64,000 bases of DNA from Caulobacteraceae bacterium (GCA_019695035.1 JAIBAU010000003.1:124001-188000); one strand, 5' to 3'. Shown: positions 34,303 through 39,931, numbered from the stretch's first letter. Notes: a model not told the origin generated them from the letters alone. Program-made: numbers and translations.

Positions 34303-34364
34303 GGGACCGACGCTGGGCCCGAATCACCCGGCCCGCCAAGTGCGGCGAAGCGCCCGGCCGGGGG

Positions 34365-34400
34365 AAAAGAAAACGCCCGCCGGGGATAACCCGGCGGGCG
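34365..34400 (-). terminator. Rho-independent terminator of the flagellin gene
   Basis: CGCCCGCCGGG, loop TTATC, CCCGGCGGGCG (11-bp perfect stem) followed on the minus strand by TTTTCTTTT. About 95 bases past the flagellin stop and upstream of thyA, separating the two transcripts. Confidence 0.88.
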
Positions 34401-34495
34401 GTACGCAAAGCAACGGAGACTAAAACGCTTACTGGCGGTGGCGGATAGGAGCCTATCCGCGAGCGGCAAACCCCTTTCACTCAAGGGGCGAACCC

Positions 34496-35329
34496 TTAGG
34501 AGCGGAACAGCGACAGGATCACCTGCGGCGCGGTGTTGGCGATGTTGAGGGCCTGGGCGCCCAGCTGCTGCTGCACCTGCAGGGCCTGCAGGCGCGCGCT
34601 CTCCTTGGCGAGGTCGGCGTCCACCAGGTTGCCGATGCCGCTCTGCAGCACGTCGGTCAGCTTGGAGACGAAGGTGTTGTGGTTCTCGATCTGCTTGGCC
34701 TGGGCGCCGATGTCGCCCATCGCCGTGTTCAGGTTGGTGATCGAGGTGTCGAGCTGGGCCAGCACCGCGGTGGCGTTGGTGGCGGTGTTGATCGAGGAGG
34801 TCGCCGCCATGGTCAGGATCGCCCCGCCCAGCGACAGGTTCTTCACGCCCAGGGTGACGTAGGCGTCGGCGTCGGCGTTGGCCAGGAACTGGATGGAAGC
34901 GGTCAGCGAGCCGTTCAGGATGTTGGCGCCGTCGAACTCGGCGTTGTCCACGATGGAGGCGATCTGGCGCAGCAGGGCCTTGTAGTCGGCGTTGAGGACG
35001 GTGCGCGATTCCGTGCTGATGGACGGGTCCATCGCCGCGACGACCTTCTCCTTGATCTGGGTGAGCAGGTCCGAGACCGATTCGCCGGCCGAGAGCGAGA
35101 CGTCGGCGATGGAGGTCGCCCGGTCCAGGCTCATCTTCACCGCCGAGAGGGCGCCGACGTCGGCGCGCTGGTTCTGGGCCACCGCCCAGATCGACGCATT
35201 GTCCTTGGCCCCGTTGACCTTGAAGCCGGAATTGATCCGGGTCTGGACGTCGGTCAGCTCCTGGTTCGTCTTGTTGAGCTGCTGCAACGCGATCATGGCG
35301 GACGTGTTGGTGTGAACGCTGACCGTCAT
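34496..35329 (-). CDS. flagellin
   Basis: Structural subunit of the flagellar filament, 277 residues, the short Caulobacter type lacking most of the D2/D3 domains. The N-terminal D0/D1 block (SAMIALQQLNKTNQELTDVQ, then AKDNASIWAVAQNQRAD) and the C-terminal one ([19 protein letters not shown], then ALNIAN) are conserved. Its start (MTVSVHTNTSAMIAL) and end (QVILSLFRS) differ from the other flagellin here. No canonical sigma54 site lies in the 154 bases upstream, unlike the paralogue. Confidence 0.95.
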   Translation of the reverse strand: MTVSVHTNTSAMIALQQLNKTNQELTDVQTRINSGFKVNGAKDNASIWAVAQNQRADVGALSAVKMSLDRATSIADVSLSAGESVSDLLTQIKEKVVAAMDPSISTESRTVLNADYKALLRQIASIVDNAEFDGANILNGSLTASIQFLANADADAYVTLGVKNLSLGGAILTMAATSSINTATNATAVLAQLDTSITNLNTAMGDIGAQAKQIENHNTFVSKLTDVLQSGIGNLVDADLAKESARLQALQVQQQLGAQALNIANTAPQVILSLFRS

Positions 35330-35483
35330 GGTCGTCTGTCTCCCGAGGGCGAAACTCAGGACATCACCCTAGGACCGCGTTGGTGTGCGTATGGTTAACG
35401 CCGCACAAACGCATTCTGCCGCGCGGCCGACGGCCTGCGCGGGAGGGAAGACGGTGGCGCCGCAGCGCCGCTGCAGTGGCTCG

Positions 35484-35777
35484 TCAGGCCTTCGTCACGA
35501 TCACCCGGCCCGCCTCGTAGGCGGGGTTGTCACGGAGCTTCAGCACCTCTTCGCGAGGGAACTGGGCGACCACTTCACCGGTCGTCCGGTCCAACGTCTT
35601 GTAGACGTAGCTGCCCGTGTGGGCGTCCTGCTCGATCACCAGGCGGTAGTCGTCGGCTGCGCGGTCGACGGGGGCCGGGGTCTTGCGGGAATTGGCGGAA
35701 GCAGCCGGAGACCCTTGCGGGCCGGACTGGCTCAGCGCCGTGGGAAGGGACGAGATCCTTTCGACATTTGTTGCCAT
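35484..35777 (-). CDS. flaG: FlaG family protein
   Basis: A 97-residue protein. The C-terminal half DYRLVIEQDAHTGSYVYKTLD, then RTTGEVVAQFPREEVLKL, is the FlaG fold; FlaG proteins influence filament length in other bacteria. The N-terminal 40 residues are Ser/Pro-rich and probably disordered. It lies between the two flagellin genes on the same strand, with GGAGAG just before the ATG. Confidence 0.88.
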   Translation of the reverse strand: MATNVERISSLPTALSQSGPQGSPAASANSRKTPAPVDRAADDYRLVIEQDAHTGSYVYKTLDRTTGEVVAQFPREEVLKLRDNPAYEAGRVIVTKA

Positions 35778-35880: not shown

Positions 35881-36705
35881 TTAGCGGAACAGGCCGAGCA
35901 GGCTCGACGCCGACGAGTTGGCGATCGAGAGGGCCTGGATGCCCAGTTGCTGCTTGGTCTGCAGAGCCTGCAGGCGGGCGCTTTCCTTCGCCAGGTCGGC
36001 GTCGACGAGGTTGCCCACGCCGGCGTCGAGGCTGTCCTGCAGCTTCGTGATGAAGTTCAGGTGGGTCTCGAGCGACTTCGAGGCCGTGCCGAGGCGCGAC
36101 AGCGAAGCCGAGACGTTGGCGATCGAGGTGTCGACCGTACCCGCGAGGGTCAGGGCGATGGTGGCCGTGTTGAACGAGGCGGTCGCGGCCAGGGTGACGA
36201 CAGAGCCGCCCAGAGCCATGATTTCCGCCCGCACGGTCAGCTTCGAGGAACCGGCCGAGTTGGCCAGGGCCTCGACCGAGGTCGCGCCGGTGTTCAGGAG
36301 GTTCTTGCCGTTGAAGGTGGCGTTGGTGACGACCTTGGCCAGCTGGTCACGCAGGGCCTTGAAGTCTTCGTTGAGGGCCGAGCGGCTGGTGGAGCTCAGC
36401 GAGGTGTCGGCGGCGGCGAGAGCCTTTTCCTTCATCTGCACGAGCAGATCGGAAACAGTTTCACCGGCGGCGATCGAAACGTCAGCGACCGACTGGCCGC
36501 GCTGAAGGGAGTCCTTCACCGCGTTCAGGGCGCCGATTTCCGCGCGCTGCGACTGGGCGATGGCCCAGATGGCGCCGTTGTCCTTCGCGCTTCCCACCTT
36601 CTTGCCGGTGTTGATGCGGTCCTGGACTTGAGCGAGCTGGTTGTTGGTGACGTTGAGGTTTTGCAGCGCAACCATGGCGCCGATGTTCGTGTTCACAGAG
36701 TTCAT
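35881..36705 (-). CDS. flagellin
   Basis: Filament subunit, 274 residues. N-terminal D0/D1: [18 protein letters not shown], then [21 protein letters not shown]-terminal: [19 protein letters not shown], then [16 protein letters not shown]. The long conserved leader (about 60 bases) has the ribosome site AAGAAGGA. A near-perfect sigma54 promoter (36779-36793) and three upstream palindromes give this copy the regulatory setup of a late flagellar gene. Confidence 0.96.
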
Positions 36706-36778
36706 GTGAACGGGTCCTTCTTCTGGATGTCCGACGCCGTTTTGGCTGCCGGGGACATTTTGTCCGAGGCTGGAAGAA

Positions 36779-36793
36779 GCAATCCGGGGGCCA
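36779..36793 (-). promoter_or_regulatory. sigma54 promoter of the flagellin gene
   Basis: Minus strand TGGC-CCCCGGA-TTGC has the -24 GG and -12 GC elements at exact spacing (consensus TGGC-N7-TTGC). Transcription would start near 36767, leaving a leader of about 60 bases before the flagellin ATG. Confidence 0.8.
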
Positions 36794-36868
36794 CTCGGGC
36801 CAATCTGGATCGAACGGCTAATTCCTTGAAAAAACGCTGTTAGTTTGCCTTAACCATGGTCCGGCCCC

Positions 36869-36934
36869 GGCAGGATTTGCCGGGCGCGCGACCGGTACGG
36901 CAGAAGTTGCCGGGCGCCATGGGCAGGAACTGCC
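36869..36934. promoter_or_regulatory. three palindromic sites, candidate FlbD/ftr enhancer array
   Basis: Three copies of GGCAG-N3-(C/T)TGCC-like palindromes: GGCAGGATTTGCC (36869-36881), GGCAGAAGTTGCC (36899-36911) and GGCAGGAACTGCC (36922-36934); the first two also share the flank CGGGCGC. They lie about 100-165 bases upstream of the flagellin sigma54 start, the normal distance for a sigma54 activator, and resemble Caulobacter ftr elements (CGGC-AAAnn-GCCG class) bound by FlbD. Confidence 0.6.
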
Positions 36935-37085
36935 GCCGCGACGGCCGGCGCGCGTCGCGGGCGTTCCGAAGGTCGGAGCCGGGGCGGCGGGCCGTCCGGA
37001 GCGGCCTCCGCGGATGCGGCCCGAGGCCCTGTGCTGCAAGGGGTTTCACGCGCGCCCTCGCGCGGGCGCGCCGATTCACGGTCCG

Positions 37086-37101
37086 TGGCGGGGTTCCTGC
37101 A
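37086..37101 (+). promoter_or_regulatory. possible sigma54 promoter of the FlaEY-like gene
   Basis: TGGC-GGGGTTC-CTGCA keeps GG-N10-GC spacing with one deviation at -12. The predicted start falls at about 37112, on the GTG start codon, so it would produce a leaderless or nearly leaderless mRNA. Weak on its own; the shared enhancer array raises the odds. Confidence 0.35.
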
Positions 37102-37111
37102 TGGCCGGGGC

Positions 37112-39931
37112 GTGACCACGATCAACTCCAGCCTGCTCGGCCTGTACGGCGTGTCCTCCGACACGATCGCCTCGCTGACCGCGACTTCGGCGGCGGGGTC
37201 GGGCGGCGCGAAGGCGAAGAAGGACCCCACGCCGCCCTGGTCGACCTCGTCGCGGGCTCCCCAGTCGAGCGCCCTGGTGCAGGCGGCGCTGAGCGGACGC
37301 AAGCTGATCAACGAGAGCGCCGCCCTCCTGGACGTCAAGGGCGCCAGCCAGGACTACCGCAAGCTCTTCGCCCTCTATCAGGGGCTCAACGCCCTGCACG
37401 GCCTCGCCGAGCGGATGGACGCGCGCAACGTCTCGCAGCTCGAGCAGGCGCAGATCATGCGCCGTTTCAGCAGCGGCCTGAGCGAGGTTTCGAGCTACCT
37501 CGAGGGCCTCGACCTCGACCACCTCGACATCGCCCGCGGCGCCACCGCCTCGACCCTGAAGGCGGGTGTGGGAATGAAGCGCACCACCGCCGAATACGTG
37601 GGCGCGACGATCCACGAGGGGGCCTCGACCGAACCGGTGACCGCCTTCCAGGGCGCGGTGCGGTTCAACATCAACGTCCAGAAGTCCACGACCCTGTCGA
37701 CCGGCGAGGTGATCCAGGTGGGCGCCCCGATCAGCGTCGACATCGACCTGTCCGAGATGGGCGCGACGCCGCGCACCCTGTCCAGCGTGATGGAGTTCGT
37801 GAACGGCAAGCTGGCGGCTGCGAACGTGGGCACGCGCCTCGCCACCGAGCGGACTCCCGGCGAGGCCAAGACCGTCGAGGTCGGCGGCAAGACCATCAAG
37901 CTGTCGCCCACGGCCGATCGCTATGCGCTCAAGATCAAGGGCCTGACCGGCGAGACGGTGACCTTCTCCGCCCCCGACCGGGCCGATGCGGCCTATGTCG
38001 TCCAGCAAGCCAACTACGGCGCCGCGGCTCACGCCCAGCTGCTGAAGTTCCAGTCCGACGGTGCGGCCGCGGGCAGCCCCGACCCGGCCCAGGGCCGCGT
38101 GGGCGAGACCTACGGCGTGGACGGGCGGGTGTTCCAGGCCGAGCTGGGCGCGTCGGTGCGGGCGGCGCGGGCGACCGCCACAGGGCCCGACGGCTCGGTC
38201 TATGTGCTGGCCGACGTCGACGGCGCGGTGGCCGGCCAGACCCTGAAGGGGGCGCGGGACGTGGCCCTGCTGAAGTACGATCCGGCGGGGCGCCTCATCT
38301 ACGCGCGCACCCTGGGCGCGGCGGAGACCGCCAGCGGGTACGCCCTTTCGGTCAACGCGGACGGCAAGGTGGCGGTGGCCGGGTCGGTCACCGGGGCCCT
38401 GGACCGGGGCGACGACGGCCTCGACGGCAAGAAGACCGACAGCTTCGTCACCGTGTTCGACGCCGGCGGCGACGAATTGTGGACCCAGCGCCGCGGCTCG
38501 CGCGACGAGGACCAGGCGCTGGCCGTGACCTGGGGAGCCGACGGAAACGTCTATGTCGCGGGCCGGGCGCGTGCGGCGGTGGTCGGCGGCGTCGAGATCG
38601 GCGGCTACGACTCCTATCTGCAGGGCTTCGGCCCGCCGACGGTCTCGAGCCCCGGCGGCGTGGCCCTGTTCGGCGCCCAGTTCGGAACCACGGGCGAAGA
38701 CCGCGCCCAGGCCATGGCCATGGACGGCGGCTCGGTGCTGGTGGCGGGCGTCGAGGACGGCCACGCAGTGGTGCGGCGCTTCGACCTGCAGCCCTCCGGC
38801 CCGCCGGTGCTGGCGGCGACGCGAGACCTCGGCCCGATCAACGGTGGACGCATCACCGGCCTGGCGGTCGACGGGGGGCGGGTCATCGTCACCGGCGCGA
38901 CCGGCAATGCGGCGCTGGACGCCGGGACGGCCAACAACAGCCATTCCGGCGGGACGGACGCCTTCGTCGCGGCTCTGGAGACCAGTCTCGCGGCCTCGGC
39001 CAATGACCGCGTCAGCTATTTCGGCGGGGCCGGCGACGACAACGCCTCCGCGGCGACGGTCGTGAACGGCAAGGTGTGGATCGCGGGAACCGCGCCCTCG
39101 ACCCGTCCCGATCCCAACCCCTCGGTCGTTTCGCCGACCGGAACGGTGCGGAACACCGAGGGTTTCCTGGCCCGCATCGATCCCCTGACGGGGGCGGTGG
39201 AATACGAGAAGCGCTTCAACGCCGACGGCAATACCGCCGCCCCGAGCGCCATCGCGGTGGCGCAGGGCGGCGCGAGCGTGCTGGACCGCCTGGGCCTGCC
39301 CTCGGGGGCGCTCGACTGGGCCGACTCCGCCCGGGTCGTGGCCGGGACCTCGGTGCGCGCGGGCGACACCTTCTATGTGCAGGGCTCCGCAGGCCGGAAG
39401 AAGGTCACCATCGAGGCCAGCGACACCCTGGCCACCCTGGCGCGCAAGATCGAGCGCGCCTCCAACTTCGCCGCCAAGGTGACGGTCGCCAAGGACGTGG
39501 TCACGGCGGCCAAGGCGGGGGCCGACGAAAGCACCACCGTCTATGGGGCTCTGGAGCGGCTGAAGATCGAGCCCAAGGACGCGCGGTCCCGCGTCGAGAT
39601 CTCTGCGGGCACCGCCGGCATGGACGCGCTGGCGGGGCTGGGCATCGAAGACACCATCGTGCGCCCCTCGCCGCCGGTCGGGGACACAAGCGCGCCGCGG
39701 CTCTACGGCCTGGGCGTGCCGAAGGACCTGCGCCTGGACTCGAAGGAGGCGCTGAAGACCACCATGGACACCCTGTCCAAGGCGCTGACCACGGTGCGCA
39801 CCGCCTACCGCAACCTGGTCGATCAGCTGAACCCTCCGCCCGCCAGCGCGGCCGCGTCGGGAAAGGTCCCCGCCTACCTGACCAACCAGATCGCCAACTA
39901 CCAGGCCGCGCTCGACCGCCTCGGCGGTTAG
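37112..39931 (+). CDS. flaEY: FlaEY-like flagellar protein
   Basis: A 939-residue protein. The N-terminus MTTINSSLLGLYGVSSDTI recalls axial flagellar proteins. Residues about 60-330 are helical then beta-rich. About 340-720 hold SBBP-type beta-propeller repeats (GPDGSVYVLADVDG; GKVAVAGSVTG; ADGNVYVAGRA). About 740-840 resemble a hook/cap-protein domain (GDTFYVQGSAGRKKVTIEASD in parts), and a C-terminal helix follows. Size and position beside flagellins match my recollection of Caulobacter 'regulatory protein FlaEY', unverified by alignment. The GTG start fits the conserved N-terminus. Confidence 0.72.
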   Translation: MTTINSSLLGLYGVSSDTIASLTATSAAGSGGAKAKKDPTPPWSTSSRAPQSSALVQAALSGRKLINESAALLDVKGASQDYRKLFALYQGLNALHGLAERMDARNVSQLEQAQIMRRFSSGLSEVSSYLEGLDLDHLDIARGATASTLKAGVGMKRTTAEYVGATIHEGASTEPVTAFQGAVRFNINVQKSTTLSTGEVIQVGAPISVDIDLSEMGATPRTLSSVMEFVNGKLAAANVGTRLATERTPGEAKTVEVGGKTIKLSPTADRYALKIKGLTGETVTFSAPDRADAAYVVQQANYGAAAHAQLLKFQSDGAAAGSPDPAQGRVGETYGVDGRVFQAELGASVRAARATATGPDGSVYVLADVDGAVAGQTLKGARDVALLKYDPAGRLIYARTLGAAETASGYALSVNADGKVAVAGSVTGALDRGDDGLDGKKTDSFVTVFDAGGDELWTQRRGSRDEDQALAVTWGADGNVYVAGRARAAVVGGVEIGGYDSYLQGFGPPTVSSPGGVALFGAQFGTTGEDRAQAMAMDGGSVLVAGVEDGHAVVRRFDLQPSGPPVLAATRDLGPINGGRITGLAVDGGRVIVTGATGNAALDAGTANNSHSGGTDAFVAALETSLAASANDRVSYFGGAGDDNASAATVVNGKVWIAGTAPSTRPDPNPSVVSPTGTVRNTEGFLARIDPLTGAVEYEKRFNADGNTAAPSAIAVAQGGASVLDRLGLPSGALDWADSARVVAGTSVRAGDTFYVQGSAGRKKVTIEASDTLATLARKIERASNFAAKVTVAKDVVTAAKAGADESTTVYGALERLKIEPKDARSRVEISAGTAGMDALAGLGIEDTIVRPSPPVGDTSAPRLYGLGVPKDLRLDSKEALKTTMDTLSKALTTVRTAYRNLVDQLNPPPASAAASGKVPAYLTNQIANYQAALDRLGG

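Follow-up and report, generated by a model that had tools for sequence, protein, structure and literature searches.

An FlbD/sigma54-type control region of an fljK-type flagellin, very probably placed head to head with flaEY by an inversion in a Caulobacteraceae genome

In the genome of a Caulobacteraceae bacterium, an fljK-type flagellin gene and a flaEY-like gene lie head to head, and the region between them raises the question of whether it controls both genes or only one. The first-pass annotation of this locus described a sigma54 element reading toward the flagellin, three palindromes resembling the Caulobacter ftr sites of FlbD and a weaker sigma54-like element reading toward flaEY, and proposed a divergent switch shared by the two genes. 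We analyzed a 64 kb stretch of DNA (hereafter, the window) from a 200 kb contig of this 2.9 Mb draft genome (64 contigs), together with the genomes of relatives from the same family; the set holds no other genome of the genus, and the closest named relatives at the locus belong to Phenylobacterium and Caulobacter. We conclude with high confidence that the region is a control region belonging to the fljK-type flagellin, that flaEY adjoins it through an inversion, and that it did not arise as a switch for both genes.

Three genes on the minus strand precede the region. The flagellin next to it (35881-36705, 274 aa) has the Pfam Flagellin_N/C domains, and was assigned to the fljK/fljL type of relatives by synteny and identity; its identity to the fljJ proteins of relatives is only 42-56%. 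The gene for a FlaG-like protein (35484-35777, 97 aa), which matches Pfam FlaG at the cut-off, is also found between fljK and fljJ in relatives. The third gene (34496-35329, 277 aa) encodes an fljJ-type (regulatory) flagellin with 57-76% identity to fljJ of relatives. Its upstream region contains neither a palindrome nor a sigma54 box, and retains, like the CtrA-type fljJ promoters of relatives, a CtrA-type half-site TTAACCAT (35391-35398, minus strand) that is present in many of them.

A pattern search for GGCAR-N3-YTGCC found exactly three palindromes between the flagellin and flaEY and no further one in the remainder of the 64 kb window, in agreement with the number and type originally described. 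Palindrome 1, GGCAGGATTTGCC (36869-36881), is closest to the flagellin promoter, palindrome 2, GGCAGAAGTTGCC (36899-36911), follows at a spacing of 30 bp, and palindrome 3, GGCAGGAACTGCC (36922-36934), at a further 23 bp. Scored with an ftr matrix trained on relatives only, they take ranks 1-3 in the window (20.8, 17.0, and 15.5, respectively). The expected number of three such sites within 66 bp is 6e-7 at the observed palindrome density and 2e-5 at the density of the reversed-pattern control. Their described position, 100-165 bases upstream of the flagellin start, holds for the predicted transcription start, from which the palindrome centres are 108-161 bp away, but not for the ATG at 36705, which the palindrome starts precede by 176-229 bp.

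Downstream of the palindromes, the sigma54 -24/-12 element TGGCCCCCGGATTGCT on the minus strand (36793-36778) is the best match in the window to a matrix for which 51 flagellin promoters of relatives served as the training set, with a score of 19.2 and a runner-up of 13.5, so that this part of the first-pass annotation stands. Relatives retain the element between about -87 and -102, counted from the ATG. The RpoN (sigma54) flagellar promoters of Caulobacter follow the motif GGCNC-N4-CTTGC (PMC4287350); the window's GGCCC-CCGG-ATTGC (36792-36779) fits every fixed base but one, the exception being the first base of the -12 half, which is A instead of C. In addition, the base after the -24 half is C rather than the G of the family consensus and of the usual RpoN flagellar element. 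From the position of the -12 half, transcription of the flagellin is predicted to start at 36767 (minus strand). Two further elements, both on the minus strand, lie between the palindromes and the sigma54 box. The TAA-rich block GTTAAGGCAAACTAAC (36839-36854), which is conserved in an alignment of 27 fljK promoters and includes a 6-spaced TTAA-type pair with one mismatch (36840-36853), separates the palindromes from an IHF-like site TTTCAAGGAATTA (36819-36831) with one mismatch to WATCAANNNNTTR. By sequence match, IHF-like sites are not above chance (5 seen, 4.2 expected); we regard this one as supported because its place, within a conserved A/T-rich stretch, is kept in relatives.

The same architecture recurs in relatives. 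Relative to the ATG of the flagellin at the fljK place, palindromes lie near -230, -207, and -177, and a TGGCCCG-N4-TTGCT-type box lies at a near-fixed distance, near -91; palindrome 1 is kept in the fljK alignment, palindromes 2 and 3 correspond to the sites at about -207 and -230, and palindrome 3 shows the weakest conservation of the three. Perfect GGCA-N5-TGCC sites average 1.96 in 26 nonredundant fljK promoters (0.007 in shuffled sequences) and 0.56 in fljL promoters, and are absent from 39 fljJ promoters; 30 bp is the commonest palindrome spacing at the fljK promoters of relatives. Of the 299 genomes of the family, 27 contain one copy each of the strict triple array, for which spacings of 23 and 30 were required with a tolerance of 2 either way. 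C. vibrioides OR37 (L048) has a site of the same type at its fljK promoter.

Analysis of the bacterium's own genome for this motif identified 13 GGCAR-N3-YTGCC palindromes at 11 places, and 45 matches to the reversed-pattern control. Flagellar promoters account for 6 of the 13 palindromes and 4 of the 11 places, and the remaining seven places lie within or next to genes not recognised as flagellar; the enrichment at flagellar promoters that the first-pass annotation proposed to look for is thus present, on few sites. Besides the fljK-type flagellin, a perfect palindrome was found at only three flagellar promoters, namely at flgI/fliX (C6:102939), between the fliP side and flgB-flgC (C19:6701), and just upstream of flgK (C38:60213); flgI, fliX, and flgK were named by NCBIfam, and the genes that we take to be fliP and flgC were recognised by their sequence alone. 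The C19:6701 palindrome (L002:1501) is a single FlbD-type site in the divergent region between the fliP side and flgB/flgC. The corresponding divergent region of C. crescentus, between fliP and flgB/flgC, has a shared CtrA site (PMC6180460). The matrix built from sites of relatives also detected a near-palindrome TAGGCAGGAATTTCCGG 55 bp before fliF, as named by Pfam (L070:11934 on contig C38). This near-palindrome matches the situation in C. crescentus, where fliF has ftr4, through which FlbD represses it (PMC3930126).

The genome encodes the regulators that such sites call for: FlbD (NF050807, 821 bits against a cut-off of 750), FliX (NF050808, 176.4 against a cut-off of 175), and RpoN (PF04552), together with an flbT gene. 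As in the ftr system of C. crescentus, the sites are upstream of the sigma54 promoter of a late flagellar gene, and both FlbD and FliX are encoded; whereas the C. crescentus ftr elements are bound by FlbD, the sites in the window are predicted ones, which we take as ftr/FlbD-type because of their motif type and conservation. The proposal of ftr/FlbD-type sites on a sigma54 flagellin promoter is supported by the concentration of the motif at flagellar promoters of the genome, the conserved register, and the regulator gene set, and FlbD/sigma54 control of the fljK-type flagellin is very likely.

Downstream of the predicted transcription start, the flagellin leader contains two hairpins with AAAAN loops that are conserved across the family: hairpin 1, GGAC-AAAAU-GUCC (36753-36765, minus strand, with a G-C/A-U covariation), and hairpin 2, CCGGC-A-GCC-AAAAC-GGC-GUCGG (36731-36752, minus strand, also with covariation). 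Both form in the minimum-energy fold of the window's leader (-18.8 kcal/mol, z -2.05). In 28 distinct leaders, 90.5% of the cells pair, with 22 double-change cells, a level reached in none of 500 shuffles; shared ancestry of the leaders can by itself raise values above those of shuffles, and the slid controls, in which 28-46% pair, are therefore relevant too. RNAalifold by itself predicts hairpin 1 only. A covariance model of the two hairpins has one strong match in the bacterium's own genome, the fljK leader, and 15 matches in 14 of 18 other family genomes (some of which may overlap the training set), all directly before a flagellin start; outside the family it gave one weak match with no flagellin beside it. 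No Rfam family matches the leader, the only hit being a chance one to mir-557, far below the cut-off. In Caulobacter, FlbT acts on the 5'UTRs of flagellins (PMC3930126, PMC4347634), and for this reason we read the hairpins as its probable target. Like the FlbT-controlled leaders, the window's leader belongs to a sigma54 flagellin and is about 60 bases long; it differs from them in its twin-hairpin AAAAN structure, which is deduced from covariation.

The arrangement of the neighboring genes sets this genome apart. In relatives, the order, with some variation, is flbT-flaF-fljL-fljK-flaG-fljJ-(GNAT-like gene)-flaEY, all in one direction, and at the inspected flaEY loci with a flagellin upstream this flagellin is co-oriented. 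In all 26 other genomes with the triple array, the array is located 2553-3300 bp upstream of flaEY in the same orientation as flaEY. In the studied genome fljK, flaG, and fljJ also precede flaEY, but all three are on the opposite strand, and here alone the array is reversed and only 178 bp from flaEY, owing to the inversion of the fljK-flaG-fljJ block. The flbT, flaF, and fljL genes remain together across contigs C16 and C40, with unrelated genes after fljL. The fljL gene is split between the start of C16 (L135:1-62) and C40 (G000:C40:75259-76149), the contig ends share its N-terminal stretch, and the two contigs probably join at this gene. Thus, as judged from gene order in one draft assembly, the fljK-flaG-fljJ block has very probably been moved and inverted, a change seen only here among the inspected genomes. 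Three old junctions are broken, which would require two inversions or one inverted transposition. Synteny and gene calls place the left breakpoint interval between fljJ and thyA (34303-34495); the right one (36935-37111) has a GC content of 80%. A 21-base inverted repeat (34459-34479/37035-37055, 81% identity with a 9-base exact core) was considered, and by a rough estimate for GC-rich DNA judged not above chance. It has one arm in each breakpoint interval, which may also be a coincidence.

Both the sites and the layout admit other explanations. The genome is GC-rich and promoters often hold palindromes, so the three sites could be chance inverted repeats, or else belong to another regulator; their density, register, and conservation argue against this, as does the reversed-pattern control, which yields no triple in any of the 299 genomes, and we consider such a reading extremely improbable. 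The inverted layout, in turn, could be an assembly error that conceals the ancestral order, given a draft of 64 contigs in which the sister flagellin fljL is itself split between C16 and C40. This too seems quite improbable, although slightly less so: both junctions are well within the 200 kb contig, and on C40 fljL is followed by unrelated genes and not by fljK, so the cluster is broken there as well.

On the other side of the region, the flaEY-like gene (37112-39931, plus strand, 939 aa) begins with a GTG homologous to the starts of relatives and has counterparts in 282 of the 299 family genomes. No Pfam or NCBIfam family recognises the protein above the cut-off; its residues 354-494 show a weak match to an SBBP beta-propeller. 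The frame is intact, with 55-57% identity to the nearest relatives, and for this reason the gene is presumably expressed. Of 73 relatives, 71 have a TTAA in the 120 bp that precede flaEY (10.4 expected; the relatives are not independent, so the count is descriptive), often as TTAA-N7-TTAC in a CtrA-type arrangement. Unlike these CtrA-type promoters, the flaEY gene in the window has no TTAA in the 177 bp upstream (36935-37111), which is the right breakpoint interval.

What drives flaEY in its present setting bears directly on the shared switch. The element proposed to read toward it, TGGCGGGGTTCCTGCA (37086-37101, plus strand), retains GG and GC and matches 9 of 12 consensus positions; the palindromes are 158-211 bp away, a workable enhancer distance, and the two genes are indeed head to head. 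Moreover, the ancestral TTAA-type element has been lost at flaEY while the frame is intact, so that something presumably drives the gene, and FlbD sites activating both the flagellin and flaEY could be a recent gain after the inversion. Against this, the family-trained sigma54 matrix gives the element a score of -3.0 (rank 506 in the window), and 23 window matches reach at least 9 of 12 positions. The start predicted from it would coincide exactly with the GTG start codon of flaEY, and relatives have no consistent sigma54 box at the equivalent place. The first matrix, built on strict-pattern training sites, was biased against this element, and a looser rebuild led to the same verdict. We therefore reject it as a credible sigma54 promoter, and with it the weaker element of the first-pass annotation. 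The shared switch loses its support with it: on the flaEY side there is no credible sigma54 promoter, the array belongs to the flagellin, and the head-to-head layout is not ancestral, since in relatives flaEY lies 2.5-3.3 kb away and is co-oriented. A divergent switch acting through the 37086 element is accordingly unlikely. It is more probable than not that flaEY is driven by a promoter that our analysis did not recognise, for instance through the TTAA-type pair at 36840-36853 or by another sigma factor in the GC-rich stretch, with the FlbD array serving the flagellin only. The frequency of TTAA upstream of flaEY in relatives and the presence of this 6-spaced pair are in line with such a promoter, and CtrA can use 6-spaced sites (PMC6180460); on the other hand, the pair is about 260 bp upstream of flaEY within a block conserved in fljK promoters, and no sigma70-type match was found in 36700-37200. 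An unrecognised promoter of this kind concerns the flaEY side and is compatible with the preferred explanation, a flagellin control region brought next to flaEY by inversion.

Under this explanation, FlbD, gated by FliX upon basal-body assembly, would bind the three palindromes, and a bend at the IHF-like site would bring it to the RNA polymerase-sigma54 at 36793-36778. The flagellin mRNA would start near 36767 with the two-hairpin leader, which FlbT, by analogy with Caulobacter, would probably use to hold translation. The inversion of fljK-flaG-fljJ would then have left the array abutting flaEY.

The missing TTAA-type element raises the question of the expression of flaEY and its timing in the flagellar programme after the inversion. 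Altered control of flaEY would be of some consequence, because FlaE and FlaY are reported, in work cited in PMC8921679, to modulate flagellin expression in C. crescentus. We consider it doubtful that the inversion took flaEY out of CtrA-type early control and into the FlbD/sigma54 late class; if it did, a modulator of flagellin expression would be switched on together with the flagellin, and the rearrangement would have rewired regulation in the flagellar hierarchy. What appears from one genome as a divergent switch is best understood as a by-product of rearrangement. The region adds one more, well-conserved case to a known kind of control region, here in a rearranged, lineage-specific setting. 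Across the family, this flagellin control region combines three in-register enhancer sites with an IHF-like site, the sigma54 box, and a leader whose two hairpins covary.
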